From Oceanicella sp. SM1341 (lineage in GTDB: Bacteria; Pseudomonadota; Alphaproteobacteria; Rhodobacterales; Rhodobacteraceae): a stretch of DNA of 64,000 bases. This document shows, one piece after another, positions 42,408 to 58,560 of this stretch (position 1 is its first letter; every line of letters starts with the position of its first letter). The translations under genes were made by a program, and so were the position numbers. The notes below the pieces were generated by a model, which searched no databases, was not told where the DNA came from, and saw nothing but the letters and a program-made list of their open reading frames with translations. The stretch lies in contig NZ_QRGC01000001.1 of NCBI RefSeq assembly GCF_003448965.1, positions 62,001-126,000 on the forward strand. Reading direction: 5' to 3'.

Positions 42408-44962
<2,555 letters not shown>

Positions 44963-44974
44963 TGCGTGTCTCCT

Positions 44975-46978
44975 TCAGCTGCGGGTGAGCAGGGCGCGGG
45001 CGGCCTCGGCCACGCGCGCGGGGGTGAGGCCGAAATGGCGGTAGAGCTCGGGGGCCGGGCCGGAGGCGCCGAAGCCGGTCATGCCGGCAAAGCCGCCCTC
45101 GCAGCCGATCAGCGCCTCCCAGCCCTGGCGCACCGCGGCCTCCACCCCGAGGCGCGGGGCGCTGCCCAGCACCTCGGCGCGGTAGGCCAGCGCCTCCTCC
45201 GCGAAGCGCTCGAAACAGGGCGCGGAGACCACGGCGACGCGGATGCCCTCCGCCTCCAGCACATCCGCCGCCTCGAGCGCGAGCGAGACCTCCGAGCCGG
45301 TGGCGATCAGCGTGAGGTCGCGCGGGCCGATGCTCTCGCGCAGCACGTAGGCGCCGCGGGCGGTGAGGTTTTCCGCCTCGTGGTGGCGCCGCACCGTGGG
45401 GAGGGACTGGCGCGACAGGCAGAGCACCGAGGGCGTGCGGGCCGAGGCCATGGCAAGCTCCCAGGCCTCGGCGGTCTCCACCGCGTCGGCCGGGCGGTAG
45501 ACATGCAGGTTGGGCATGGCGCGCAGGCTGGCGATGGTCTCCACCGGCTGGTGGGTGGGGCCGTCTTCGCCGAGGCCGATGGAATCGTGGGTCATCACGT
45601 AAGCCACCGGCACGCCCATCAGCGCGGAGAGGCGGATGGCCGGGCGGCAATAGTCCGCGAAGGCGAGGAAGGTGCCGCCGTAGGGCCTGAGCCCGCCATG
45701 CAGCGCGATGCCGTTCATCGCCGCGGCCATGCCGTGCTCGCGGATGCCGTAGTGGATGTAGCGGCCGGAGAAATCGCCCGGTGTCACCGGCGCCATCCCG
45801 GCCGAGCGGGTGTTGTTCGAGCCCGTGAGATCGGCCGAGCCGCCGACCGTGTGGGGCAGGGCGGCGTTCACCACCCCGAGGGCGAGCTCGGAGGCTTTTC
45901 GCGTGGCATGCGCGGGCTCGGCCGCACTCACCTCCGCCTTGAAGGTGCAGAGCGCCTCGCGCAGGGCGGCGAGATCGCCCGGGCCATGCGCCTCGGCGAA
46001 GGCCGGGCCGCGGGCGTCGCCCGCCAGACGCGCCTCCCAGTCTGCCCGTGCGGCGGCACCGCGCCGGGCCACGGCGGCCCAGGCGGCGCGCACATCGGCC
46101 GGGATCTCGAAGGGCGGATGCGGCCAGTCGAGTGCTGCGCGGGCGGCGGCGATCTCCTCCGCCCCCAGCGGCGCGCCATGCACCTTGTGCGAGCCGGCGA
46201 GCGTGGGCGCGCCGCGGCCGATCTCGGTGCGGCAGGCGAGCAGCGAGGGGCGGGGGTCGGCCTTCGCGGCCGCAATGGCGGCGGCGATCGCCTCCGCGTC
46301 ATGCCCGTCCACCCGGGCCACGTGCCAGCCGAGGGCGGCGAAGCGCGCGCATTGATCGGCGGAGGAGGAGAGCGAGACCGGCCCGTCGATGGTGATGCGG
46401 TTGTCGTCCCACAGCACGATCAGCCGGCCGAGGCCGAGATGCCCGGCGAGGTCGGCCGCCTCGTGGGAGATGCCCTCCATCAGGCAGCCGTCGCCCGCCA
46501 TCACGTAAGTGTGGTGGTCGACCAGCCCGTCGCCATAGCGGGCGTTGAGCATGCGCTCGGCCAGCGCCATGCCCACCGCCGTGGCGATGCCCTGGCCGAG
46601 GGGGCCTGTGGTCATCTCGATGCCGCTCGCGTGGCCGTATTCCGGGTGGCCGGCGGTGCGGGCGCCGAGCTGGCGGAAGGCCTTCAGCTCCTCCAGCGTC
46701 ATGTCCTCGAAGCCCACGAGATGGTGCAGCGCGTAGAGCAGCATCGAGCCATGGCCGGCCGAGAGCACGAAACGGTCCCTGTCCGGCCAGTCGGGGCGGG
46801 CGGGGTCGAGGCGGATGAAGCGGTTGAACAGCACCGCCGCCACGTCCGCCATGCCCATCGGCATGCCCGGGTGGCCCGATTGCGCCGCCTCCACCGCGTC
46901 CATCGCCAGCACGCGCAGGGCGGTGGCCATGGCGGTCTCTGCGCTGGTGGCGGGGGCGATCTTCTCCATGGTGGTCAT
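44975..46978 (-). CDS. cbbT: CbbT, transketolase
   Basis: A 667-residue thiamine-diphosphate enzyme that transfers two-carbon units in the regenerative CBB phase. The N-terminal domain has [43 protein letters not shown] and the ThDP motif [13 protein letters not shown]...DDNRITIDG. The middle domain has [14 protein letters not shown] and [17 protein letters not shown]. Spacing is 15 bp from cbbP and 12 bp to cbbA. Confidence 0.97.
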
Positions 46979-46993
46979 GTCTGGGGTCTCCTC

Positions 46994-47866
46994 TCAGGCC
47001 CGGCGCGCCTGGTCGACCAGCCGCAGGATGAGCGGCGTGAGGATCAGCTGCATCGCGAGGTCGAGCTTGTTGCCGGGGATGACGATGGAATTCGCGCGGC
47101 TCATCCAGGAGCCGTGGATCATCTGGGTGAGGTAGGCGAAATCTATGCCGCGCGGGCTGCGGAAGCGGATCACCACCAGGCTCTCGTCGGCGGTGGGGAT
47201 CCACCGGGCGATGAACGGGTTGGACGTGTCCACCACCGGCACGCGCTGGAAGTTGATGTCCGTTTCGGTGAACTGCGGGCAGATCACGTGCGCATAGGCG
47301 TGCATGCGGCGCAGGATGGTGTCGGTGACGGCCTCGGTGGTGTAGCCGCGCAGCGCCCGGTCGCGGTGGATCTTCTGGATCCATTCGAGGTTGATCACCG
47401 GCACCACGCCGATCTTGAGGTCGGCCTCGCCGGCGATGTCGAGCGTGTCGGTCTTCACCGCGCCGTGCAGGCCCTCGTAGAACAGCAGGTCCGAGCCCTC
47501 CTCGAAGGGCGCCCAGGGGGTGAACTCGCCCGGCGGGGTGCCCCAGCGCGCGGCCTCCTTGTCGTCGTGCACGTAGTGGCGGGTGCGACCGCTGCCGGTC
47601 TCGCCGTATTCGCGGAAGATCGCCTCCAGCTCGCCCAGCACGTTGGCCTCGAGGCTGAAATGGCTGAAGGTCTCGTCGCCGGCGGCGAGGCGGGCGGCCA
47701 GCTCGGCCTTCATCTCGGCGCGGTTGAAGCGGTGGAAGGCGTCGCCCTCGATGGTGACCGGGGTGATGCCCTCGCGGCGAAAGATCTGGTCGAACGTGTG
47801 CTTCACCGTGGTGGTGCCCGCCCCGGAGGAGCCGGTGACCGAGATGATGGGGTGTTTTCTGCTCAT
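46994..47866 (-). CDS. cbbP: CbbP, phosphoribulokinase
   Basis: A 290-residue class I (bacterial) PRK that phosphorylates ribulose 5-phosphate to RuBP; such enzymes are activated by NADH. The P-loop is SVTGSSGAGTTTVKHTF near the N-terminus, followed by IEGDAFHRFNRAEMK and YEGLHGAVKTDTLDIAGEADLKIGVVPVINLEWIQKIHRD. The ATG giving MSRKHPIIS is the homologous start. It lies 11 bp after cbbF. Confidence 0.97.
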   Translation of the reverse strand: MSRKHPIISVTGSSGAGTTTVKHTFDQIFRREGITPVTIEGDAFHRFNRAEMKAELAARLAAGDETFSHFSLEANVLGELEAIFREYGETGSGRTRHYVHDDKEAARWGTPPGEFTPWAPFEEGSDLLFYEGLHGAVKTDTLDIAGEADLKIGVVPVINLEWIQKIHRDRALRGYTTEAVTDTILRRMHAYAHVICPQFTETDINFQRVPVVDTSNPFIARWIPTADESLVVIRFRSPRGIDFAYLTQMIHGSWMSRANSIVIPGNKLDLAMQLILTPLILRLVDQARRA

Positions 47867-47877
47867 GGTGTCGCCCT

Positions 47878-48894
47878 TCAGGTCTTGAACAGGCCGCGGA
47901 TGCCGAAGAGCGGCGAGATCTCGGCCTCCGGCAGGTCGTGGTAGGCGGCCACGCGGGCCACCTTCTCGGCGCTGCCGAACACGAAGGGGGTGCGGTCGTG
48001 CAGGCCGGAGGCGGCGAGCGACAGGATGGGGTCGGCGCCGTCGGTGGCGCGGCCGCCGGCCTGCTCGATCAGGAAGGCGATGGGCGCGCATTCGTAGACC
48101 AGCCGCAGCCGGCCGTGCTGGTAGCCGGGGCGCGCGTCGGCGGGGTAGAGGAAGATGCCGCCGCGCATCAGGATGCGGTGCGTCTCGGCCACCAGCGAGG
48201 CGATCCAGCGCATGTTGTAGTTGCGCCCCAGGGGGCCCGCCTCGCCGGAGAGGCAATCGTCGATATAGGCGCGCACCGGCTTGCTCCAGTGGCGGAAGTT
48301 GGAGGCGTTGATGGCGAATTCGGTGGCGCGCGGCGGCACGCGCACCACCTCGTTCACCAGCAGGAACTCGCCGCTCGCGGGCTCGAGCACGTAGTGGCTC
48401 ACGCCCGCGCCGCAGGTGACGAGCAGGGCGGTCTGCGGCCCGTAGATCACGTAGCCGGCGGCGAGCTGGTTTCGCGCGGGGGCGAGGAAACTCTCCTGCG
48501 GCGTCTCCCCGGCCGGGCGGATGGAGAAGATCGTGCCGATGGAGACGTTCACGTCGATGTTGGACGAGCCGTCCAGCGGGTCGATGGCGAGCGCGAGGGG
48601 GCCTCGCGGGTCGATCTGTGTCGCCCCCTCGCGCTCCTCGGACGCCAGCCAGCGGACACCCTTGCCGGGGAGGATGGCGGCAAAGGCCTCGTCGGCGATC
48701 ACGTCCAGAGCCTTCTGGCCGTCCCCGTCCGAGTTGCGCCCCACGGCGGCCCCGAGGGGAGAGCCGATGCCGCCGCGGGCGATGAGCCGGGAGATCTCCG
48801 CCGCCACCTCAGCCAGGGCGCCGATCAGCCCGGCCACGACGGGCTCGGCCCCGGTGAGCAGCAGATGCTCCTGCAATCTGGTGATGTGGATCAT
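47878..48894 (-). CDS. cbbF: CbbF, fructose-1,6-bisphosphatase class I
   Basis: A 338-residue Mg-dependent phosphatase used in the CBB cycle, probably also on sedoheptulose bisphosphate. The metal-binding motif [24 protein letters not shown], the EEREG acidic helix, GGIFLYPAD, and [24 protein letters not shown] are all present. It is the first gene of the CBB operon, transcribed divergently from cbbR with a 101-bp gap that holds a palindrome. Confidence 0.97.
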
Positions 48895-48921
48895 GGTTCC
48901 TTCCCGGCTGCGGCTTGGTTG

Positions 48922-48941
48922 CGCAATAATCTTTCATTGCG
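48922..48941. promoter_or_regulatory. Candidate CbbR operator
   Basis: Perfect inverted repeat CGCAAT-N8-ATTGCG in the cbbF-cbbR gap, 27 bp before the cbbF start. LysR regulators bind T-N11-A dyads between divergent genes. The element and a second AT-rich region near 48970-48995 suit CbbR recognition and activation sites. Confidence 0.6.
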
Positions 48942-48995
48942 GGAGGGCGGCGTGAAAGGGAATTGAAAAGTTTTGTGTATCCGTTAAGAAAAATT

Positions 48996-49913
48996 ATGGC
49001 TCATGAAAACGCGATCACCCTCAAGCAGCTCCGCGCCCTGGCCGCGATCGTGGAGGCGGGAACCCTCACCGCGGCGGCCGAGCGGCTGAGCGTCACGGCG
49101 CCCGCCGTCTCCACCCAGTTGCGCACGCTGGAGGGGCATCTCGACGTGCGCCTGCTGCACCGCAACGAGGGCGGCCCGGCGCTGCCCACGCCCGAGGGGC
49201 GCGAGGTGCTGCTCGCGGTGCAGGAGGTGGAAAGCGTGCTCGCCCGGTGCTTTGCTCGTATCGCCGCCATCCGCGCCGGCAAGGCGGGGCAGGTGGCGCT
49301 GGGGGTGGTGAGCACGGGGAAATACTTCGCCCCCGGCATCGTTGCTGCAGCGCGGCAAGCGCTGCCGGACATCGAGGTGTCGCTCTTCGTGGGCAACCGC
49401 GAGGAGGTGATCGAGGCGCTGCGCCGCCGCTCGGTCGACCTCGCGATCATGGGCCGCCCGCCGCGCGAGCCGGCGGTGGAGGCCAGCATACTCGGCCCGC
49501 ACCCGCATGTGCTGATCGCGGCCCCCGACCACCCGCTGGCCGGGCGCTGCGACATTACGCCCGAGGCGCTGCTGGCCCAGACCTTCCTCAGCCGCGAGCC
49601 CGGCTCCGGCACCCGCATCCTCGCGGAGCGAATCCTCGACCGGATCGGCGACGGCCAGCCCTATGCCACGGTGGAGATGAACTCGAACGAAACCATCAAG
49701 CAGGCGGTGATCGCGGGGCTCGGCCTCGCCATCATCTCGCGGCACACGGTGCTGCACGAACTGGAGGCGGGCCGGCTGGTGACCCTGAGCTTCGCCGGCC
49801 TGCCCATCGAGCGGCAATGGTTCCTCATCCATCGCGCCGGAGCGGCATTGTCACACCCCGCGGCGGCCGTGCACCGATTTATCCTGCAGAGCAAGGGCCT
49901 GCTGCCCGCCTGA
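48996..49913 (+). CDS. cbbR: CbbR, LysR-type regulator of the CBB operon
   Basis: A 305-residue LysR regulator. The N-terminal winged helix (ITLKQLRALAAIVEAGTLTAAAERLSVTAPAVSTQLRTLEGHL, about 8-50) precedes the co-inducer domain (GVVSTGKYFAPGIVAAARQALPDIEVSLFVGN...). CbbR proteins activate cbb genes in response to RuBP, PEP or NADPH. The ATG was preferred over an upstream TTG because LysR homology begins there. Divergent from cbbF. Confidence 0.95.
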   Translation: MAHENAITLKQLRALAAIVEAGTLTAAAERLSVTAPAVSTQLRTLEGHLDVRLLHRNEGGPALPTPEGREVLLAVQEVESVLARCFARIAAIRAGKAGQVALGVVSTGKYFAPGIVAAARQALPDIEVSLFVGNREEVIEALRRRSVDLAIMGRPPREPAVEASILGPHPHVLIAAPDHPLAGRCDITPEALLAQTFLSREPGSGTRILAERILDRIGDGQPYATVEMNSNETIKQAVIAGLGLAIISRHTVLHELEAGRLVTLSFAGLPIERQWFLIHRAGAALSHPAAAVHRFILQSKGLLPA

Positions 49914-50028: not shown

Positions 50029-50064
50029 GAGGAAGCGCAACATTTGCAGAAAGGTAACAATTGC

Positions 50065-50559
50065 ATGAGTCATCCGGTTGCGGATCCGTCAAGGCTTCGT
50101 CTCGGGGCGCTGTTCGACCAGTGCCACGCCCTTGTCTCCTCGGAAATGTTCCGGCGGATGACCGACGACCAGCGCGGCCTCGAGCTTTCCTTCAGCCAGA
50201 TTCATGCCCTGATGCATCTCAATCGCCATGGCGCCGTGATCATCGCCGACCTGGCGGAGGCGGTGAAGCTCAGCTCCACCGCCGCCTCGCGCATGGTCGA
50301 GCGCATGGTGCGCGCCGGCCTGGTGCAGCGGCGCGAAAACCCGGAGGACCGGCGGCAGAAATACGTCGAGCTCACGCCCGCCGGCGTCTCGCATGTCGAG
50401 GAGCTGCGCAGCTCGATCACCCAGATCTACTCCGAGCTCTTCGTGCACGTGCCCGACAAGATGGTTCACCAGCTGATCGACACGCTGGTGAAGGCCCGCA
50501 GCTACATGCCGCCGGCCATCTGCACGCTGAACTCCCGGCCCGCCGAAACGGAGGGCTGA
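50065..50559 (+). CDS. MarR-family transcriptional regulator
   Basis: A 164-residue winged-helix regulator. The core is GAVIIADLAEAVKLSSTAASRMVERMVRAGLVQRRENPEDRRQKYVELTPAG, with the wing DRRQKYVELT. The ATG giving MSHPVADP has an AAAGG upstream. It sits between cbbR and the convergent ggpS, so its target is not clear; it may regulate itself or a distant gene. Confidence 0.88.
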   Translation: MSHPVADPSRLRLGALFDQCHALVSSEMFRRMTDDQRGLELSFSQIHALMHLNRHGAVIIADLAEAVKLSSTAASRMVERMVRAGLVQRRENPEDRRQKYVELTPAGVSHVEELRSSITQIYSELFVHVPDKMVHQLIDTLVKARSYMPPAICTLNSRPAETEG

Positions 50560-50570
50560 GGCAGGCGAGG

Positions 50571-50590
50571 GGCGGGCCCGGGGGCCCGCC
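50571..50590. terminator. Hairpin between marR and ggpS
   Basis: Perfect 8-bp stem GGCGGGCC / GGCCCGCC with loop CGGG in the 34-bp convergent gap. No T-run; it probably ends both transcripts. Confidence 0.5.
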
Positions 50591-50593
50591 GTC

Positions 50594-52096
50594 TCAGGCG
50601 CGTACCGTCTCGGCCACGCCGCGGCGGGCTTCCTCGAACACCTCGAGCTGGCCGCGCGTCCAGGCGCCCACGTCGAAGCGCTTGGAGGATTTGCGCAGCA
50701 GCGCCATGCGGCCGCGGGCTTCCTCGTCGTCCATGTCGAGCGCCTGGTCGATGGCCGAGTTCATCGAGGCATGGCTGAACGGGTTCACCGGGATGGCGCC
50801 GTTGAGCAGGATGGCGCAGCCGGCGAACTCGGAGAGGATCAGCCGGCCGGCGCCATCGGTGCGCGCTGCGCAGTATTCCGAGGCGACGAGGTTCAGCCCG
50901 TCGCAGAGCGGGGTGATCCAGCACACGTCGGCCACCCGGTAGTAGGCGATGAGGTCGCGGAAGGGGATGGCGGTGGAGATCAGCGACACCGGCTGCCACT
51001 CGAACGAGCCGAAGCGGCCGTTGATGCGGCCGGAGATCTCCTCGATCGAGCGCTGCACCTCCTCGTAGGCGGTCATGTTGCGGTTCGCGCCCACCGAGAC
51101 ATGCATCAGGCGGATCTTGCCGTGCAGCTCCGGCCGCCGCTCGAGCAGGCGCTCGTAGGTCTCGAGCTGCTCGATGTTGCCCTTGGTGTAGTCGGTGCGC
51201 GCGACGGAGATGATCAGGCTCAGATCGCCGATCTCGGCGCGGATCTCCTCCACCTTGGCCTGCACGTCCTCGGCGCTGGCGCATTCCTCGATATAGTCGA
51301 AGTTGGTGCCCACGGGGTTGGAGTGGATGATCACCTCGCGGCCCTCGTGCTCGAGGCGGATCGGCACGGTGCGCTCGGAGAGGGCGGTGCCCACGGGGGT
51401 CATCTCCTCGCCCACCTTCGCGTTGGCGGTGACATCGGCCGAGGTGAGGCTGCGCGCGGCGGAGGCGAAGTTCGCCGCGTAGCGCGGGATGTGGAAGCCC
51501 ACGATATCGCACGACAGCAGGCTGCGCAGGATCTCCTCGCGCCAGGGCAGCACGTTGAACAGGTCGGCCGATGGGAAGGGCGTGTGGTGGAAGAAGGCGA
51601 TCTTCGCGTTCGGCTTGAGCTGGCGCACGTAGCCCGGCACCAGCCACAGGTTGTAGTCGTGGATCCAGATGACCGCGTCGTCATCGGCCTCGGCGGCGGC
51701 AGCCTCGGCGAAGGCCCAGTTCACCTCGCGGAAGGCCGGCCAGTCCACCGGGTCGTAGTTGTACTTTTCCTTGAAGGAGTGGAGGATGGGCCAGAAGGCC
51801 TCCTTCGAGCTCACGTGGTAGAAGCTCGACACCTGCTCCGCGCGCAGCGGCAGGCGCGAGACGCGGTACTTCCCGTAGCTGTCCTCGATGGTGACCACGC
51901 GCTCGAAATCCGGGTTGGCGGTGTCCTCGGCCAGTTTCCACGCGATCCACGAGCCGCTCGACACCTGCCCGAAGAAGCTCTTCATGGTGGGCACGATGCC
52001 GTTGGGGCTCTTGTTCTCGCGGCGGACAATCTGGCCGTCGATCTCCACCTCCTCGTAGGGCTCGCGGTGATAGACGATGACGAGATCGGACTTCAC
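50594..52096 (-). CDS. ggpS: Glucosylglycerol-phosphate synthase (GgpS-like), GT20
   Basis: A 500-residue GT20 glucosyltransferase. Several stretches match cyanobacterial glucosylglycerol-phosphate synthase better than trehalose-6-phosphate synthase: YHREPYEEV at the start, the SPNGIVPTMKSFF loop (30-42), KEAFWPILHSF, AVIWIHDYNLWLVP, AKIAFFHHTPFPSADLFNVLPWREEI, and ITPLCDGLNLVASEYCAA near 400. GgpS joins a nucleotide-activated glucose to glycerol 3-phosphate. Start is GTG, 1 bp after the HAD phosphatase stop. The upstream phosphatase and gpsA support the assignment. Confidence 0.88.
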   Translation of the reverse strand: MKSDLVIVYHREPYEEVEIDGQIVRRENKSPNGIVPTMKSFFGQVSSGSWIAWKLAEDTANPDFERVVTIEDSYGKYRVSRLPLRAEQVSSFYHVSSKEAFWPILHSFKEKYNYDPVDWPAFREVNWAFAEAAAAEADDDAVIWIHDYNLWLVPGYVRQLKPNAKIAFFHHTPFPSADLFNVLPWREEILRSLLSCDIVGFHIPRYAANFASAARSLTSADVTANAKVGEEMTPVGTALSERTVPIRLEHEGREVIIHSNPVGTNFDYIEECASAEDVQAKVEEIRAEIGDLSLIISVARTDYTKGNIEQLETYERLLERRPELHGKIRLMHVSVGANRNMTAYEEVQRSIEEISGRINGRFGSFEWQPVSLISTAIPFRDLIAYYRVADVCWITPLCDGLNLVASEYCAARTDGAGRLILSEFAGCAILLNGAIPVNPFSHASMNSAIDQALDMDDEEARGRMALLRKSSKRFDVGAWTRGQLEVFEEARRGVAETVRA

Positions 52097-52097
52097 A

Positions 52098-52871
52098 TCA
52101 ATTCTCCAGATTTGTGAGGCCGAAGCGCTCCAGCGCCTCGGTGATGCCGCCGGCGCCGATGCGGCGGCAGGCCAGTGCGTTGGGGAGCTTGTCGGTATGG
52201 GCGGTGAGCGCGGGCTCGGCGCCGCCCACCACGGCGCCCTTGAGGCCGGTCTGGAACATGCTCAGGTCATTGAGCGTGTCGCCGGCCACCAGCACCCGCT
52301 CGGCGTCCAGGCCGAGATGGTCGATGAGCCGCAGCAGCGAGGGGCCCTTCGAGACCCCCTTGGGCAGCACGTCGAGATACTTGTTGTCGGAGATCAGCAC
52401 GTCGACGCCGTGTTCCTCGATCTTCGGCACCCAGGTGTCGTCGAAGGCCTGCGGGTCGTAATGGAAGCTCTGGCGGTAGCGGAAGGGGGTGGCCTGCGGC
52501 TCGAGCCCCGGCGCATCGGCCAGGAGCTCGCGGAAGAAGGCGCCGCGGTCGTCCCAGTTCTCGGCGATCTCGCGCTCCAGCTCCTCGATCATCTCGATGC
52601 GGCCGTCCGCCACGCGGGCGATGGTGGTGCCCACGTCGCCCACCACGTAGAGCGGCCAGGGCACGCCGCCGTCGCACAGCTCGCCGATGAACTTCGGGTC
52701 ACGCCCGGTGACGAAGATCAGGCCGAAATGGCGGCGGTTGGCCTCGATGTAGTCGTAGAGCTCACGCCGGTCCGCCTCGGAGCCGCCGAGGAAGGTGCCG
52801 TCGAGGTCGGTGGCGAGGATGCTCTTCCAGCCGGTGATGGCGGTGGCGGGGTTCAGGGTGTCGGTGGTCAA
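52098..52871 (-). CDS. HAD-family phosphatase, probable glucosylglycerol-3-phosphate phosphatase
   Basis: A 257-residue Cof/SPP-type HAD hydrolase: nucleophile motif ATDLDGTFLGG (19-29), FVTGRDP motif II, Lys in KYLDVLPKGVSKGPSL, and VAGDTLNDLSMF as motif IV. In several gammaproteobacteria an HAD domain is fused to the N-terminus of GgpS; here it is a separate gene just upstream. Likely role is dephosphorylating glucosylglycerol phosphate. The start is TTG overlapping the gpsA stop as TTGA; no ATG precedes the DLDGT motif. Confidence 0.8.
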   Translation of the reverse strand: MTTDTLNPATAITGWKSILATDLDGTFLGGSEADRRELYDYIEANRRHFGLIFVTGRDPKFIGELCDGGVPWPLYVVGDVGTTIARVADGRIEMIEELEREIAENWDDRGAFFRELLADAPGLEPQATPFRYRQSFHYDPQAFDDTWVPKIEEHGVDVLISDNKYLDVLPKGVSKGPSLLRLIDHLGLDAERVLVAGDTLNDLSMFQTGLKGAVVGGAEPALTAHTDKLPNALACRRIGAGGITEALERFGLTNLEN

Positions 52872-54004
52872 GGCAGTTCGCTCCCGTAATGGGTGAAGGC
52901 GGCTTCGGCGGCAGGATGGGCGATCTCGATGTCGAGGGCGCGCGGCTCTGCCTGCAGGGGCGAAGCCCAGTATTCGGCGAAGGCATGGCCGATGGGCACA
53001 TCGTCATGCAGGATAGACCGGGTCATCTCGCAGATCGGCATGAACACGCCGAGCGCGCGGGCGAGGTCGGTCACGGTGAGGGCGTTGCCATGCCCCTCCA
53101 CCACCACGGGCTTGCCGTCGAACACCGCGTCATGGGCGATGCCGGAGCCGCGCTGCTTGCCGTAGGAGAAGTTGCGCGACTTGGTGGAGGAACAGGTGAG
53201 CATCAGGTCGCCCATGCCGGCGAGGCCGGTCACGGTCTCGCGGGTGCCGCCCATGGCGACGGCGAGTTCCTTGATCTCGGAGAGGCCGCGGGTGATGAGG
53301 GCGGCGCGGGCGTTCATGCCGAAGCCGGCACCCTCGAGGATGCCGCAGGCGATGGCGATCACGTTCTTCACCGCGCCGCCGATCTCCACGCCCACCATGT
53401 CGTTCGACACGTAGGGGCGGAAGCTGTAGGTGCCCATCGACAGTGCCATGCGGGCGGCCGCGTGGCGCTCGATGTCCTTGTCCCACTCCGGCTCGTTGGA
53501 GGCGATGGTGACGGCGGTGGGCGCGTCGGCGGCCACTTCCACGGCGAAGGTCGGACCGGAGATCACCCCGATCACCCGGCCGGGGGCTGCATCCTCGGCG
53601 ATGCCGCTCATCAGCAGGTGGGTGCCCTTCTCCACGCCCTTTGCGCAGATGAACAGCGGCACCTCGGGGGCGGCAAGCGCATGGGCCTGCTCGGAAATCT
53701 CGCGGATCGAGGTGGAGGGCGTGACGATCAGCACGGCTTCCGCGCCCGCCATGGCCTCGCGCATGTCCGACACGGCGCGCAGCCGCTCGGGCAGGGGGAT
53801 GTCGGGCAGGTAGCGCTGGTTGCGGCGGGTGGAATTGATTTCCTCGGCCAGCTCGGGCCGCCGCGCCCAGAGGGTGACATTGCGCCCGGCCCGCACCAGG
53901 ACGGACGCCAGCGCCGTGCCCCATGCACCGGCGCCGATCACGGCCACGTTTTCGTATGGCCCCGTGTTCGAAGACTGAGAGAACTCGACTGAGCGGTCCT
54001 TCAT
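52868..54004 (-). CDS. gpsA: GpsA-like NAD(P)-dependent glycerol-3-phosphate dehydrogenase
   Basis: A 378-residue dehydrogenase, longer than the usual GpsA of about 320-340 residues, with a short N-terminal extension and about 35 extra C-terminal residues (EYWASPLQAEPRALDIEIAHP...). The NAD-binding GAGAWGTALASVL (24-36), ICAKGVEKGT, GPTFAVEVA, EIGGAVKNVIAIACG (catalytic Lys) and GLAGMGDLMLTC are intact. It makes glycerol 3-phosphate from DHAP. Overlap with the HAD gene makes it the probable acceptor supplier for GgpS. A strong inverted repeat lies beside its ribosome binding site. Confidence 0.9.
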   Translation of the reverse strand: MKDRSVEFSQSSNTGPYENVAVIGAGAWGTALASVLVRAGRNVTLWARRPELAEEINSTRRNQRYLPDIPLPERLRAVSDMREAMAGAEAVLIVTPSTSIREISEQAHALAAPEVPLFICAKGVEKGTHLLMSGIAEDAAPGRVIGVISGPTFAVEVAADAPTAVTIASNEPEWDKDIERHAAARMALSMGTYSFRPYVSNDMVGVEIGGAVKNVIAIACGILEGAGFGMNARAALITRGLSEIKELAVAMGGTRETVTGLAGMGDLMLTCSSTKSRNFSYGKQRGSGIAHDAVFDGKPVVVEGHGNALTVTDLARALGVFMPICEMTRSILHDDVPIGHAFAEYWASPLQAEPRALDIEIAHPAAEAAFTHYGSELP

Positions 54005-54021
54005 ACTGGGAACAAACTCCT

Positions 54022-54071
54022 GTTTTACTTATCGCGGACTACAGATGCGCCGCCCGTAACGTAAGTAAAAC
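54022..54071 (-). promoter_or_regulatory. Leader inverted repeat before gpsA (possible RBS-occluding hairpin)
   Basis: Perfect 10-base arms GTTTTACTTA and TAAGTAAAAC, separated by 30 bases. On the gpsA mRNA the promoter-proximal arm would pair with the arm that directly touches AGGAG, the apparent ribosome binding site, about 14 bases before the ATG. It could be an RNA switch or a protein operator. Confidence 0.6.
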
Positions 54072-54161
54072 GAAGCGGTGCACACTGTATGCCCGGACCT
54101 CCCGACAGCATCGGCTCCTTGCCGTTGCCGTCTGTCCGGGGCAGGATATGTAACGGTACGG

Positions 54162-54190
54162 TGCAATGTCAATGTTGCATCGCACAACAT
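54162..54190. promoter_or_regulatory. Overlapping palindromes in the gpsA-galU gap
   Basis: TGCAA-N8-TTGCA (54162-54179) and ATGTTG-N7-CAACAT (54172-54190) share a half-site. The arrangement is typical of a repressor or activator operator placed between divergent promoters. Confidence 0.45.
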
Positions 54191-54402
54191 TCTGTGCATT
54201 CTTGGCCGGAACACCCCGGCCGCCCCCGACATATGCCGCGCACAGCAGGCCGGTTAACGATATGGAAAATTTTTGTATTGTTTTTCGGAGCAAGCCTTCT
54301 ACCTGCTGATCGGCGAAGGCCGCTCCCGCGCCGCAGCAGGGGGCCGCGAAGACAACCCGTTCGCGTGGTAGATGTGGCCGAGTGAATGAAAGGAAAGTGA
54401 GA

Positions 54403-55290
54403 ATGGCAGACATGGCGACGAAACGCATCCGTACCGCGGTATTCCCGGTGGCGGGGCTCGGCACGCGCTTCCTTCCGGCGACCAAGTCGACCCCGAAGGA
54501 GCTGCTGCCGGTGCTGGACACGCCGCTGATCCAGTTTGCCATCGACGAGGCGCGCGCCGCGGGCATCGACCGCATGGTCTTCGTCTCGCACCCCGACAAG
54601 GGCAGCATCGAGGATTACGTGCGCCACGACCCCGAGCTCTGCGCCCACCTGCGCGCCGCCGGCAAGCACGACTTCGCCGACAAGCTCGACACGCTCTCGC
54701 TCGACGAGGGCGACCGCGCGCATTTCGTGATGCAGACCGAGCGCCTCGGCCTCGGCCACGCGGTGCTGCAGGCCCGGCCCTACGTGCAGGAGGAGGCCTT
54801 CGCCGTGATCCTGCCCGATGACCTCATCCTGGGCGAGAAGGGCTGCATCGGCGAGATGATCGAGGCGCATGCGCGCTGCGGCGGCCACCTGGTCGCCACC
54901 ATGGAGGTGGATGCGGACCGCATCTCGAAATACGGCGTGCTGGTGCCGCGCGGCGGGCAGGGCGAGCGGCTCACCCATGCCACCGGCATGGTGGAGAAGC
55001 CGAAGGCCTCCGAGGCGCCGTCGAACCTCGGCGTGGTGGGGCGCTACGTGCTCGACAGCGCGATCTTCGACCAGCTCGCCGTGCAGCAGAGCGGCCATGG
55101 CAACGAGATCCAGCTCACCGACGCCATCGCCGCCACCACCGGGGCCGTGGGCCTCGCCGGCTACCGCTTCTCGGGCATCCGCTTCGACTGCGGCTCGCAG
55201 GAGGGCATGCTGCAGGCCACCCTGCACGTGGCGAACATGCGCGGCCTGATGGCCGAGCGCCGCACCCCCGCGCTCGCTCTCGTGGGCTGA
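54403..55290 (+). CDS. galU: GalU, UTP-glucose-1-phosphate uridylyltransferase
   Basis: A 295-residue nucleotidyltransferase that makes UDP-glucose. The N-terminal FPVAGLGTRFLPATKSTPKELLPVLDTPLIQFAIDEA motif is intact, followed by LGLGHAVLQARPYV and FAVILPDDLIL, GGHLVATMEV, VEKPKASEAPSNLGVVGRYVLD, and ITDAI-type QLTDAIAATTG. The ATG giving MADMATKR was chosen for AGGAAAGTGAG at good spacing over an upstream GTG. Five bp from the alpha-glucosidase gene, so co-transcribed. Confidence 0.93.
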   Translation: MADMATKRIRTAVFPVAGLGTRFLPATKSTPKELLPVLDTPLIQFAIDEARAAGIDRMVFVSHPDKGSIEDYVRHDPELCAHLRAAGKHDFADKLDTLSLDEGDRAHFVMQTERLGLGHAVLQARPYVQEEAFAVILPDDLILGEKGCIGEMIEAHARCGGHLVATMEVDADRISKYGVLVPRGGQGERLTHATGMVEKPKASEAPSNLGVVGRYVLDSAIFDQLAVQQSGHGNEIQLTDAIAATTGAVGLAGYRFSGIRFDCGSQEGMLQATLHVANMRGLMAERRTPALALVG

Positions 55291-55295
55291 CGCCG

Positions 55296-56984
55296 ATGCA
55301 GGCGGGAATGCCCTTCGGCGCCATGAGCGCCAGCCCCGTGCAGACCGGACAGCTCGGCGGGGACCCGGACTGGTGGCGCGGCGGGGTGATCTACCAGATC
55401 TACCCGCGCTCCTTCGTCGACCTCAACGGCGACGGGGTGGGCGATCTCGCCGGCATCAACTCGCGGCTCGACCATGTGGCGGGCCTCGGGGTGGACGCGA
55501 TCTGGATCTCGCCGTTCTTCCCCTCGCCGATGGCCGATTTCGGCTACGACGTCTCGGACTACCGGGGCGTCGACCCGCTGTTCGGCACCATCCAGGATTT
55601 CGACAACCTGCTCTCCTCGGCGCATGAGAAGGGCCTGCGGGTGTTGCTCGACCTCGTGCTGTCGCACACCTCCGACCAGCACTCCTGGTTCCAGGAAAGC
55701 CGGGTGGACCGCACCAACTCCCGGGCGGACTGGTATGTCTGGGCCGATCCCAAGCCCGACGGCACGGCGCCGAACAACTGGCTCTCGATCTTCGGCGGCC
55801 CGGCCTGGGAATGGGACACGCGCCGGCGCCAGTACTACATGCACAATTTCCTCGCCGCCCAGCCGGACCTGAACTTCCACAATCCGCAGGTGCAGGAGGC
55901 GATGCTCAACGTGGCGCGCTTCTGGCTCGAGCGCGGGGTGGACGGCTTCCGCCTCGACACGGCGAACATGTACGCGCATGACCCCGCGCTCACTGACAAC
56001 CCGCCGCGCAGCCAGCCGGCGGTGCCGGGCGTGCCGGAGCAGAACCCCTACGCGATGCAGGAGCCGATCCACAACATCAACCGCCCCGAGACGCTGGAAT
56101 TCCACGAGCGGCTGCGCAAGCTCACCGACGAGTTCAGCGCCACCACGCTGGTGGGCGAGCTGGGCGTGGTGCCGGACATGTATGCCTCGCTCACCGAGTA
56201 TACGGCCCCGGGGCGGCTGCACATGGCCTACTCGTTCGATTTGCTGGGCGGTGAGTTCAAGGCCGGGTTCTTCCGCCGCACCGCCGAGCGGATGAGCCGC
56301 CGCGCCGGCGATTGCTGGCCCTCCTGGGCGCTGTCGAACCACGACGTGGCCCGGGCCATCTCGCGCTGGCGGCTGGGGCACAATTCCCAGACCGCGGCGC
56401 CGCTGCTGATGGCGGTGCTCTGCTCGCTGCGCGGCACGCCCTGCATCTACCAGGGCGAGGAGCTGGGCCTCACGGAGGCGACCATCCCCTACGAGCTGCT
56501 GCAGGACCCCTACGGCAAGCGCTTCTGGCCCGAGTACCAGGGCCGTGACGGCTGCCGAACCCCGATGCCCTGGGCCTCCGGCGCAGCACATTACGGCTTC
56601 TCCGACGCGACCCCCTGGCTGCCCACGGCGCCCGAGCACGGGCCGCTCTCGGTCAACGACCAGGACATGAACGAGGGCTCGGTGCTCAACCGGGTGCGGC
56701 GCTTCCTGCGCTGGCGCGGCGGCTTCGACCAGCTGCGCAAGGGCGACATCCGCTTCCTCGACTCCGACCCCGACGTGCTGGCCTTCCTGCGCCAGGGCGA
56801 GGAGGCGGACATGCTCTGCCTGTTCAACATCTCCGATCGCCAGCGCTCCTTCGAGACCGGGGAATTCACCTCCGTCGCCCCGCTCACCGGGCACGGGTTC
56901 GCGGGCGAGCTGCTCGGGCTGGGGGTGATCCTGCCGCCCTTCGAGGCCTTCTTCGGCACCGTTCCCTCCCGCAACTGGGACTGA
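55296..56984 (+). CDS. GH13 alpha-glucosidase (AglA-like)
   Basis: A 562-residue GH13 glycosidase. Conserved regions: VIYQIYPRSFVDLNGDGVGDLAGI, VLDLVLSHTSDQH, nucleophile Asp221 (GFRLDTANM), acid-base Glu288 (LVGELGVV), and Asp350 (ALSNHDVARA). It has no signal peptide, so it acts in the cytoplasm, and resembles alpha-glucosidases of the Sinorhizobium AglA type. Placed after galU and across from ggpS-HAD-gpsA, it could hydrolyse alpha-glucosides, including glucosylglycerol, but substrate is not decided by sequence. Confidence 0.88.
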   Translation: MQAGMPFGAMSASPVQTGQLGGDPDWWRGGVIYQIYPRSFVDLNGDGVGDLAGINSRLDHVAGLGVDAIWISPFFPSPMADFGYDVSDYRGVDPLFGTIQDFDNLLSSAHEKGLRVLLDLVLSHTSDQHSWFQESRVDRTNSRADWYVWADPKPDGTAPNNWLSIFGGPAWEWDTRRRQYYMHNFLAAQPDLNFHNPQVQEAMLNVARFWLERGVDGFRLDTANMYAHDPALTDNPPRSQPAVPGVPEQNPYAMQEPIHNINRPETLEFHERLRKLTDEFSATTLVGELGVVPDMYASLTEYTAPGRLHMAYSFDLLGGEFKAGFFRRTAERMSRRAGDCWPSWALSNHDVARAISRWRLGHNSQTAAPLLMAVLCSLRGTPCIYQGEELGLTEATIPYELLQDPYGKRFWPEYQGRDGCRTPMPWASGAAHYGFSDATPWLPTAPEHGPLSVNDQDMNEGSVLNRVRRFLRWRGGFDQLRKGDIRFLDSDPDVLAFLRQGEEADMLCLFNISDRQRSFETGEFTSVAPLTGHGFAGELLGLGVILPPFEAFFGTVPSRNWD

Positions 56985-57117
56985 CCGACCGGACGGCACC
57001 CGGGCGGGCGCGTGTGGCAGGCGGGGCGCGCCCGGGCCCCGCGCTTGACCTTGCCGGGGCGCTCCTGTCCTCATAGAAGCCTCAGCGAGTTGAGCGAGGA
57101 GGCCGGGCGGAACGCCG

Positions 57118-58560
57118 ATGCTGGAGCTTCAGATCCCCGGGCTGCGCGAGCGGTCGGTGCCCATCCAGTCGGCGCTGCGCCAGGCGCTGGTGCTCGCCAT
57201 CGGCGAGGGCCGGCTCACGGCCGGGCAGAAGCTGCCGCCGCCGCGCGCGCTCGCGGGCCAGCTCGGCGTGGCGCGCAACACGGTGACGGCGGCCTACGAC
57301 GAGCTGGTGGCCCGCGGCTACGTGAATTCCGTCGAACGGCGGGGGTATTTCGTGGCCGAGGGGCTCGATGCGCGGCCCGCTGCCGCTGCCGCCCCGGGGG
57401 TGGACTGGGGGGCACGGCTGCGGATCGCGCCGGGCGCCCTTCCGCAGATCGAGAAACCGGCGGACTGGCAGGCCTATCCCTATCCCTTCATCTACGGCCA
57501 GGTCGACCCCGGGCTGTTCCCGATCTCGGTCTGGCGCGGCTGCTCGCGCGCGGCCCTCGGCCGCTCGGCGCTCGATTACTGGGCGGCGGACCGGGCGATG
57601 GAGGACGACCCGATGCTGCTCGAGCAGATCCGCCGCCACGTGCTGCCGGCGCGCGGCATCTTTGCAGCGCGCGACGAGGTGATGATCACCCTTGGCGCCC
57701 AGCACGGGCTCTACCTGCTCTCGCGCCTGCTTGCCGGGCCGGGCACCGAGGTCGGCGTCGAGCTGCCCGGCTACCCCGATACGCGCAACGTCTTCCAGCT
57801 CGGCGGCGCGCGGTTGCGCCCGCTGCCGGTGGACGGCGAGGGGCTGCGGATGGACGACGCGGCGATGCGCGGCCTCGCGGCGCTGGTGGTCACGCCCGCG
57901 CATCACTGCCCCAGCATGGTGACGCTGAGCGACGCGCGCCGGGCGGAGTTGCTGGCCCTCGCCCGACGACACGACACGGTGGTGATCGAGGATGATTACG
58001 AGGGCGAAATCTGCTTCGGCGCGCCGCGCCCGGCGCTGAAGGCGGCGGACCGGGACGGGCGGGTGGTCTATCTCGGCACGCTCTCCAAGATCCTCGCGCC
58101 GGGGGTGCGGCTGGGCTACATGGTGGCTCCCGCGCCGCTGCTGGCCGAGGCGCGGGCGCTGCGCCGGCTGATGCACCGCTCGGCGCCGCTCAACAACCAG
58201 CGCACGGCGGCGATCTTCCTCGCCGAGGGGCATTACCTCGGGCTGGTGCGCAGCATGCGCGCGGCACTGGAGGAGCGCTGGCGGCTGGTGGATGCGGGGC
58301 TCGACCGGCTCCTGCCGCGCTTCCGCCGGGCGCCCGCCACCGGCGGCACCGCCTTCTGGCTCGAGTGCCCGGTGGATGCGCGGGCCTTCGCGGCGCGGGC
58401 GGCGGCACACGGGGTGATGGTGGAATCCGGCGATCCGTTCGTGGGTGCGGAGGCGCGGGGCCGCTTCATCCGCCTCGGCATCTCCTACATCGACAAGGCG
58501 CGCATCGGGCCGGGGCTGGAGCTGCTGGCGCGCGCGGCCGCCGAGCTCGGCGCGGGGTGA
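57118..58560 (+). CDS. MocR-family PLP-binding transcriptional regulator
   Basis: A 480-residue fusion of a GntR-type winged helix (about 10-75: QALVLAIGEGRLTAGQKLPPPRALAGQLGVARNTVTAAYDELVARGYV) to an aminotransferase-fold domain. The PLP Lys is near residue 324 in LGTLSKILAPGVRLGY, with DDYEGE ahead. MocR proteins control genes for PLP, GABA, taurine or amino acids, often divergently. The next gene downstream is a TauE/SafE permease, which hints at a transport-linked role only. Confidence 0.9.
   Translation: MLELQIPGLRERSVPIQSALRQALVLAIGEGRLTAGQKLPPPRALAGQLGVARNTVTAAYDELVARGYVNSVERRGYFVAEGLDARPAAAAAPGVDWGARLRIAPGALPQIEKPADWQAYPYPFIYGQVDPGLFPISVWRGCSRAALGRSALDYWAADRAMEDDPMLLEQIRRHVLPARGIFAARDEVMITLGAQHGLYLLSRLLAGPGTEVGVELPGYPDTRNVFQLGGARLRPLPVDGEGLRMDDAAMRGLAALVVTPAHHCPSMVTLSDARRAELLALARRHDTVVIEDDYEGEICFGAPRPALKAADRDGRVVYLGTLSKILAPGVRLGYMVAPAPLLAEARALRRLMHRSAPLNNQRTAAIFLAEGHYLGLVRSMRAALEERWRLVDAGLDRLLPRFRRAPATGGTAFWLECPVDARAFAARAAAHGVMVESGDPFVGAEARGRFIRLGISYIDKARIGPGLELLARAAAELGAG

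Follow-up and report, generated by a model that had tools for sequence, protein, structure and literature searches.

A predicted glucosylglycerol island with unfused synthase and phosphatase genes in Oceanicella sp. SM1341

Investigating a 64,000-nucleotide stretch of the Oceanicella sp. SM1341 genome (Rhodobacteraceae; assembly GCF_003448965.1, contig NZ_QRGC01000001.1, positions 62,001 to 126,000; the whole stretch is called the window here, and positions follow its own numbering), we found five intact reading frames at 50594-56984, gpsA-HAD-ggpS on the minus strand and galU-GH13 on the plus strand, which together probably form a module for osmoprotection by glucosylglycerol (GG) with UDP-glucose as sugar donor. 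GG itself is very likely to be the product. In the proposed pathway, GpsA would convert dihydroxyacetone phosphate to sn-glycerol 3-phosphate and GalU would produce UDP-glucose; GgpS would then join glucose and glycerol 3-phosphate to GG-phosphate, from which the HAD phosphatase would release GG. The divergently encoded GH13_23-like alpha-glucosidase would have as its most likely part the splitting of GG into glucose and glycerol once salt stress ends, and the island as a whole is presumably induced by salt.

Synthase, phosphatase and their arrangement

The features of the island are the following:

50594..52096, minus strand: ggpS, GT20 glucosylglycerol-phosphate synthase, 500 amino acids, GTG start (TIGR02398, tree)
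52098..52871, minus strand: HAD-IIB (S6PP-type) phosphatase, 257 amino acids, TTG start; predicted glucosylglycerol-phosphate phosphatase (PF05116, fused homologues)
52868..54004, minus strand: gpsA, NAD(P)H glycerol-3-phosphate dehydrogenase isoenzyme, 378 amino acids; predicted glycerol 3-phosphate supply (NF000942)
54005..54381, no strand: intergenic region common to both divergent transcription units (sequence)
54143..54172, minus strand: promoter-like site TTGACA-18-TATCCT, about 140 bp upstream of gpsA (consensus match only)
54382..55290, plus strand: galU, UTP-glucose-1-phosphate uridylyltransferase isoenzyme, 302 amino acids; predicted UDP-glucose supply (TIGR01099, below cut-off)
55296..56984, plus strand: GH13 alpha-glucosidase (GH13_23-like), 562 amino acids; predicted glucosylglycerol hydrolase (PF00128, HaG 3wy1)

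The GT20 protein scores 641 bits against TIGR02398, the GgpS model, over the curated equivalog cut-off of 569, and 385 bits against TIGR02400, the OtsA model, under the cut-off of 565. The second GT20 protein of the genome, called OtsA here, reaches 520 bits with the OtsA model (also below 565) and 240 bits with the GgpS model, and adjoins OtsB and TreY away from the island (L137:6379-11798). A quick tree of 105 rows sets 103 GgpS rows (the window's protein and 102 others; as far as we know, no biochemically characterised GgpS is among them) against two OtsA rows, the genome's own and that of E. coli; the dividing branch is fully supported but very long and drew a long-branch warning from the program, and two pairs of rows are identical. 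The first-pass annotation of this DNA, which had taken the GT20 protein for GgpS and not OtsA, thus agrees with the model scores as well as with the phylogeny. The host genome keeps otsA, otsB and treY together, though glgA and glgC are both under their cut-offs.

The HAD protein matches PF05116 (S6PP) with 131 bits over residues 16-252, its nearest PDB match is the sucrose-phosphatase 1s2o (72 bits), and the motifs which we take to be the HAD set (DLDGT, Lys, GDTLND) are all visible in its translation. Five loci found in a sample of 398 genomes from the phylum carry, directly before a GgpS part, a HAD part 37-42% identical to the window's. At one of them, L186, both lie in a single frame of 752 amino acids (S6PP at 2-233 with 187 bits, GgpS at 257-743 with 825 bits against TIGR02398); this fusion is the one confirmed as a single frame, the other four being deduced from frame lengths and match positions, and one of these four, L191, has an internal stop codon. 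The order HAD-ggpS of the operon is the order in the fused proteins, which carry the phosphatase N-terminally and the synthase C-terminally (PMC10873239). In the window the two are separate genes in different frames, 1 bp apart. Homology to the phosphatase half of the fused proteins backs the earlier suggestion that the HAD protein is the partner phosphatase of GgpS, and we predict that it corresponds, as an unfused protein, to that half of proteobacterial GgpPS.

The minus-strand genes are packed like an operon: the gpsA stop and the TTG start of the HAD gene overlap by 4 bp (TTGA), the HAD stop lies that single base pair from the GTG start of ggpS, and GGAG stands upstream of the GTG. The promoter-like site is the single match in 50400-57200, where 0.5 (standard deviation 0.9) are expected, and is a consensus match, no more. 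A five-gene island at these positions had already been described in the first pass; all frames proved intact where claimed, and their families were assigned here with NCBIfam and Pfam. The gap of 398 bp given for the divergent genes is true if galU starts at the in-frame ATG at 54403, and shrinks to 377 bp with the longest galU frame.

The triad recurs at related loci. We counted 91 of them with a complete ggpS (80 minus one fragment, with 21 family loci added and nine duplicates removed), the fragment being L109 at a contig end and the duplicates being loci that repeat the ggpS end of a named locus; the set was picked by similarity to the window's ggpS or by family, and its fractions therefore describe relatives rather than GgpS overall. 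The HAD gene is present upstream of ggpS at 90 loci (exception L101) and gpsA at 85, which is also the count for the full gpsA-HAD-ggpS triad; L047, one of the six loci without gpsA, begins too close to the contig end to be judged. At 51 of the 91, galU lies within 6 kb of ggpS, several contigs being too short to reveal it over that distance. Recurrence at this many related loci argues that the grouping is more than chance. Relatives come mostly from genera which we take to be Rhodobacteraceae, and include others such as Oricola, Hoeflea and Cohaesibacter; GgpS scores over the cut-off in 12 of the 398 genomes of the phylum sample and in 22 of 149 family genomes (22 positive, 127 negative).

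One locus from another family of the class (L189:1628-12311) has the triad flanked by a methyltransferase frame and transporter genes of the sugar ABC type (binding protein, two permeases, ATPase). The methyltransferase frame has glycine/sarcosine and sarcosine/dimethylglycine domains, which score 276 and 202 bits, both under cut-off. The position of the triad between methyltransferase domains like those of betaine synthesis and an ABC transporter fits an osmolyte role, and a combined osmolyte island is possible at this locus.

Two genes flanking the island in the window, one of MarR type (50044-50559) and one of PdxR/MocR type (57118-58560), were rejected as members, both being unmatched at the related loci (E 1e-10, at least 40% of length). 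A Calvin-cycle cluster adjoins the island at 42408-49913; its translations, read by eye only, comprise RuBisCO large subunit, aldolase, transketolase, phosphoribulokinase, bisphosphatase and a LysR regulator.

The GH13 alpha-glucosidase

The GH13 protein scores 393 bits against PF00128, and its top PDB match is HaG, the alpha-glucosidase of Halomonas sp. H11 (3wy1, 656 bits), followed by 6aav (XgtA) and QsGH13. The catalytic HaG residues Asp202, Glu271 and Asp333 are conserved in it, within GFRLDT, VGELG and SNHD (HaG numbering, as well as the placing of QsGH13 in GH13 subfamily 23, after PMC8928221). We regard the protein as GH13_23-like, a provisional class that rests on HaG, 6aav and QsGH13 heading the PDB list and not on CAZy models. 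In NCBIfam these GH13 proteins match best a model called 'beta-galactosidase BglA' (NF051899), which is an odd name for a GH13 protein; it was not adopted, the score of 766 bits being below the cut-off of 900 and the nearest solved relatives being alpha-glucosidases. On another contig of the host genome (L198:9523-14196), two GH13 genes of the same kind lie close together, sharing 52% and 43% identity with the one in the window.

What the enzyme does in the island can be read in two ways. It may be a glucosylglycerol hydrolase acting after salt stress, a reading that we put forward tentatively, the first pass having given the GH13 protein no part in the pathway; the chances are about even that it is instead a maltose or sucrose alpha-glucosidase, or a maker of GG by transglucosylation to glycerol, as HaG is in vitro. 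HaG, the nearest solved structure, has been used for in-vitro alpha-GG production (PMC6004087), and the closest relative of the window's GH13 gene adjoins genes for a sugar ABC transporter, so that maltose or sucrose could be the substrate of the window's enzyme. Moreover, genes of this kind (E 1e-50 or better) occur in 96 of the 149 family genomes, far more than carry ggpS, which suggests that their usual role differs. A further point speaks against assigning GG hydrolysis to this gene: Slr1670 homologues have been reported in alphaproteobacteria (PMC5002435), and another GG-degrading enzyme may therefore exist in the host genome. In the heterotrophs with fused GgpPS examined in PMC10873239, no Slr1670 homologue was found. 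The enzymes published for GG breakdown are the GHL5-type Slr1670/GghA (PMC5002435) and a GH13_18 phosphorylase (PMC10873239; PMC11787520).

Two considerations favour hydrolysis over these alternatives: the island already has a route of GG synthesis, and the lineages in which a GH13 gene adjoins ggpS carry GH13 genes that are not most closely related to one another. Within the retrieved flanks of ggpS, GH13 is found at six of the 91 loci besides the window; in the window, as at five of these six loci, it stands on the divergent side. By chance some 0.2-0.35 of 91 would be expected, a rough estimate based on a span of 10 kb, genomes of 4.2 Mb, 1-1.6 copies and random placement, and on independence, which relatives do not have. 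In a 21-row quick tree, where unlinked genes of other genomes are represented by just 11 loci, the linked GH13 genes occupy three places, which makes repeated recruitment probable; GH13 genes probably came to adjoin ggpS at least three times. A single inherited GH13 gene beside ggpS is unsupported by this tree, the linked genes being not one clade.

Linkage of GH13 may also go along with absence of glgC. In a cross-table of 87 ggpS genomes, from which L044, L065, L069, L071 and L094 were left out in addition, glgC is missing in all six GH13-linked genomes (the window's included) versus 11 of 81 unlinked ones (p 2.5e-5); a seventh linked case, L065, falls outside this comparison. GH13 linkage, however, changes just four times on the GgpS tree, and the median p from independent pairs is 0.25 (range 0.125-1); with so few changes, the association is not significant and suggestive only.

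Sugar nucleotide donor and acceptor of GgpS

The island's GpsA, which scores 383 bits against NF000942 (cut-off 257), is 47-64% identical to the GpsA proteins of other clusters versus 37% to the second GpsA of its own genome. Its GalU is 54-67% identical to cluster GalU proteins at other loci, and two more GalU-like genes in the host genome are each 51% identical to it. Being closer to cluster copies than to their own paralogues, GpsA and GalU look like cluster-specific isoenzymes, in keeping with the first-pass view of gpsA as a paralogue that could supply glycerol 3-phosphate. From its family, GalU is predicted to supply UDP-glucose.

In profile searches of the host draft genome (5.74 Mb, 99.34% complete), the strongest matches to the glgC and glgA models reach 32 bits (cut-off 425) and 35 bits (cut-off 328) respectively, so that the lack of glgC, first noticed within the window, holds across the whole draft, as does that of glgA. 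With neither gene over its cut-off in a genome 99.3% complete, UDP-glucose becomes the likelier donor, and on balance we favour it as the main donor of the island's GgpS. Loss of glgC is not confined to this genome: the gene is missing in six of the 22 family genomes with GgpS over the cut-off (all six at least 98% complete), in 17 of the 87 genomes of the cross-table (70 have it) and in seven of a group of 11 genomes, including all five with fused proteins, one of which is only 71% complete. L032, with a partial match of 264 bits, and L056, with two pieces of 239 and 219 bits that may reflect a split in the assembly, were placed among the genomes without glgC; where a genome was reached through a named locus it carries no completeness value, and some of the losses may be draft gaps. 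On the GgpS tree (98 rows with known state), the glgC state changes at least 15 times. The GgpS family thus persists without GlgC, which argues for UDP-glucose.

Several observations weigh on the other side. The GalU protein scores 278 bits against TIGR01099, below the equivalog cut-off of 327, and is to be called a GalU-like paralogue, the one reservation about the gene identities of the first pass, which otherwise hold. Published work on Synechocystis GgpS has the enzyme requiring ADP-glucose, UDP-glucose being unused (PMC6004087). In the family, glgC is present in 16 of the 22 ggpS-positive versus 51 of the 127 ggpS-negative genomes (Fisher p 0.005, relatedness uncorrected), and at four of 100 loci it lies near ggpS, inside the retrieved flanking sequence of at most about 9 kb. 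Genomes with linked galU lack glgC in five of 47 cases versus 12 of 40 without the linkage (p 0.03, the direction opposite to that expected if the one replaced the other), and independent pairs on the GgpS tree gave no association between galU linkage and glgC loss. Linkage of galU as compensation for a lost glgC is therefore unsupported by the cross-table and by the pairs alike; of the original argument for UDP-glucose, the missing glgC stands genome-wide, and galU beside ggpS as a companion of that loss is not borne out.

Nor do the binding-site residues decide the matter. Nine donor-site residues of trehalose-6-phosphate synthase (TPS) are given in PMC6642608, and we mapped them onto E. coli numbers ourselves. 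D130, H154, R262, D361, N364 and E369 are invariant in 103 of 103 GgpS rows and L365 is conserved in 100; position 363 holds Met in 84 rows and Leu in 19, the window's protein having Leu, and G22 found no confident alignment in the GgpS rows. These residues fail to separate users of UDP-glucose from users of ADP-glucose.

Against this background, we consider it rather unlikely that the island is a GG module whose GgpS uses ADP-glucose or is promiscuous, with galU meeting other UDP-glucose needs and ADP-glucose coming from an enzyme that the glgC model misses. The Synechocystis precedent, the enrichment of glgC among ggpS-positive family genomes, its presence in 70 of the 87 cross-table genomes and its proximity to ggpS at four loci all point that way. 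They are opposed by glgC and glgA being under cut-off in the host itself, by the 17 ggpS genomes without glgC, six of them at least 98% complete, and by ggpS having a cluster-specific GalU nearby far more often than GlgC (51 of 91 loci versus four). At L049, L087, L107 and L122, both glgB and glgC lie within 9 kb of ggpS, on either side, and three of these four loci are without linked galU.

A very improbable variant keeps glycerol 3-phosphate as acceptor and has another hexose moved, for example galactose, giving a floridoside-type solute. Red-algal GT20 enzymes do couple UDP-galactose with glycerol 3-phosphate (PMC6642608), but none of the five island genes gave an epimerase match, and the island's GH13 protein resembles alpha-glucosidases.

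As to the acceptor, Arg300 of OtsA, which we take to be a contact of glucose 6-phosphate, is Arg in both OtsA rows and in none of the 103 GgpS rows (Asn 91, Ala 6, Asp 5, Ser 1); in 92 of the 103 the next column holds an Arg, so an alignment shift is possible. R9, Y76 and W85, presumably further acceptor-site residues, are conserved in 103 of 103. That the GT20 protein is a trehalose-6-phosphate synthase and the HAD protein a trehalose phosphatase, as the shared fold family and the 385 bits with the OtsA model might suggest, was rejected as highly improbable on the scores of the two models and the genome's own OtsA/OtsB locus elsewhere, to which are added the missing Arg at position 300 (with the Arg one column on) and the 14 families listed for the HAD protein, which include no trehalose-phosphatase model.

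Known systems and wider meaning

Four known systems come closest to the island. With the fused GgpPS proteins of Stenotrophomonas, Pseudomonas, Azotobacter and Marinobacter (PMC10873239) it has the same two predicted activities in common, and the fused HAD-GgpS proteins found here in proteobacteria are built of HAD and GT20 parts homologous to the island's and arranged alike; the island, in contrast, has two genes, a cluster-specific gpsA and divergent galU and GH13_23-like genes. The neighbour of ggpPS in Marinobacter is a GH13_18 GG phosphorylase (PMC10873239), that of the island's ggpS a GH13_23-like gene. In gene arrangement the island resembles Synechocystis PCC 6803 (GgpS/GgpP/GghA), both having separate synthase and phosphatase genes, and a hydrolase gene often adjoins cyanobacterial ggpS (PMC10873239), just as the island's GH13 gene is near its ggpS. 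The Synechocystis GG hydrolase Slr1670, however, is of GHL5 type (PMC5002435) whereas the island enzyme belongs to GH13, and the Synechocystis donor is ADP-glucose (PMC6004087) whereas UDP-glucose is predicted here. HaG of Halomonas sp. H11 is the best solved match of the island's GH13 protein and shares its catalytic residues; the accessible part of the text presents it as an in-vitro alpha-GG catalyst, without GG physiology. The trehalose pathway of OtsA and OtsB has the same logic of a GT20 and a HAD enzyme, the predicted acceptor in the island being different and the genome's own OtsA/OtsB being encoded elsewhere.

The layouts that the literature, in the portions available, describes are separate ggpS and ggpP in cyanobacteria and fused ggpPS in heterotrophs, with ADP-glucose as donor; the breakdown gene adjoining ggpS is GghA or the GH13_18 phosphorylase. 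Among the open-access papers listed, no title or abstract opening describes a gpsA-HAD-ggpS or ggpS-galU cluster in alphaproteobacteria. The pathway, then, is known; the unfused layout, its spread and the link to GH13 look new.

The island represents a third ggpS layout, which recurs in the family of the window, and offers a testable case for UDP-glucose as GgpS donor; its GH13 protein is a candidate for a further kind of GG-degrading enzyme. If the donor prediction is true, a GgpS accepting UDP-glucose would be useful for GG production in hosts poor in ADP-glucose. More speculatively, many marine alphaproteobacteria may run a self-contained GG cycle uncoupled from glycogen, with a GgpS using UDP-glucose, a GpsA and GalU of its own and an unfused phosphatase, into which GH13_23 enzymes could have been recruited repeatedly as GG hydrolases in lineages without glycogen synthesis.

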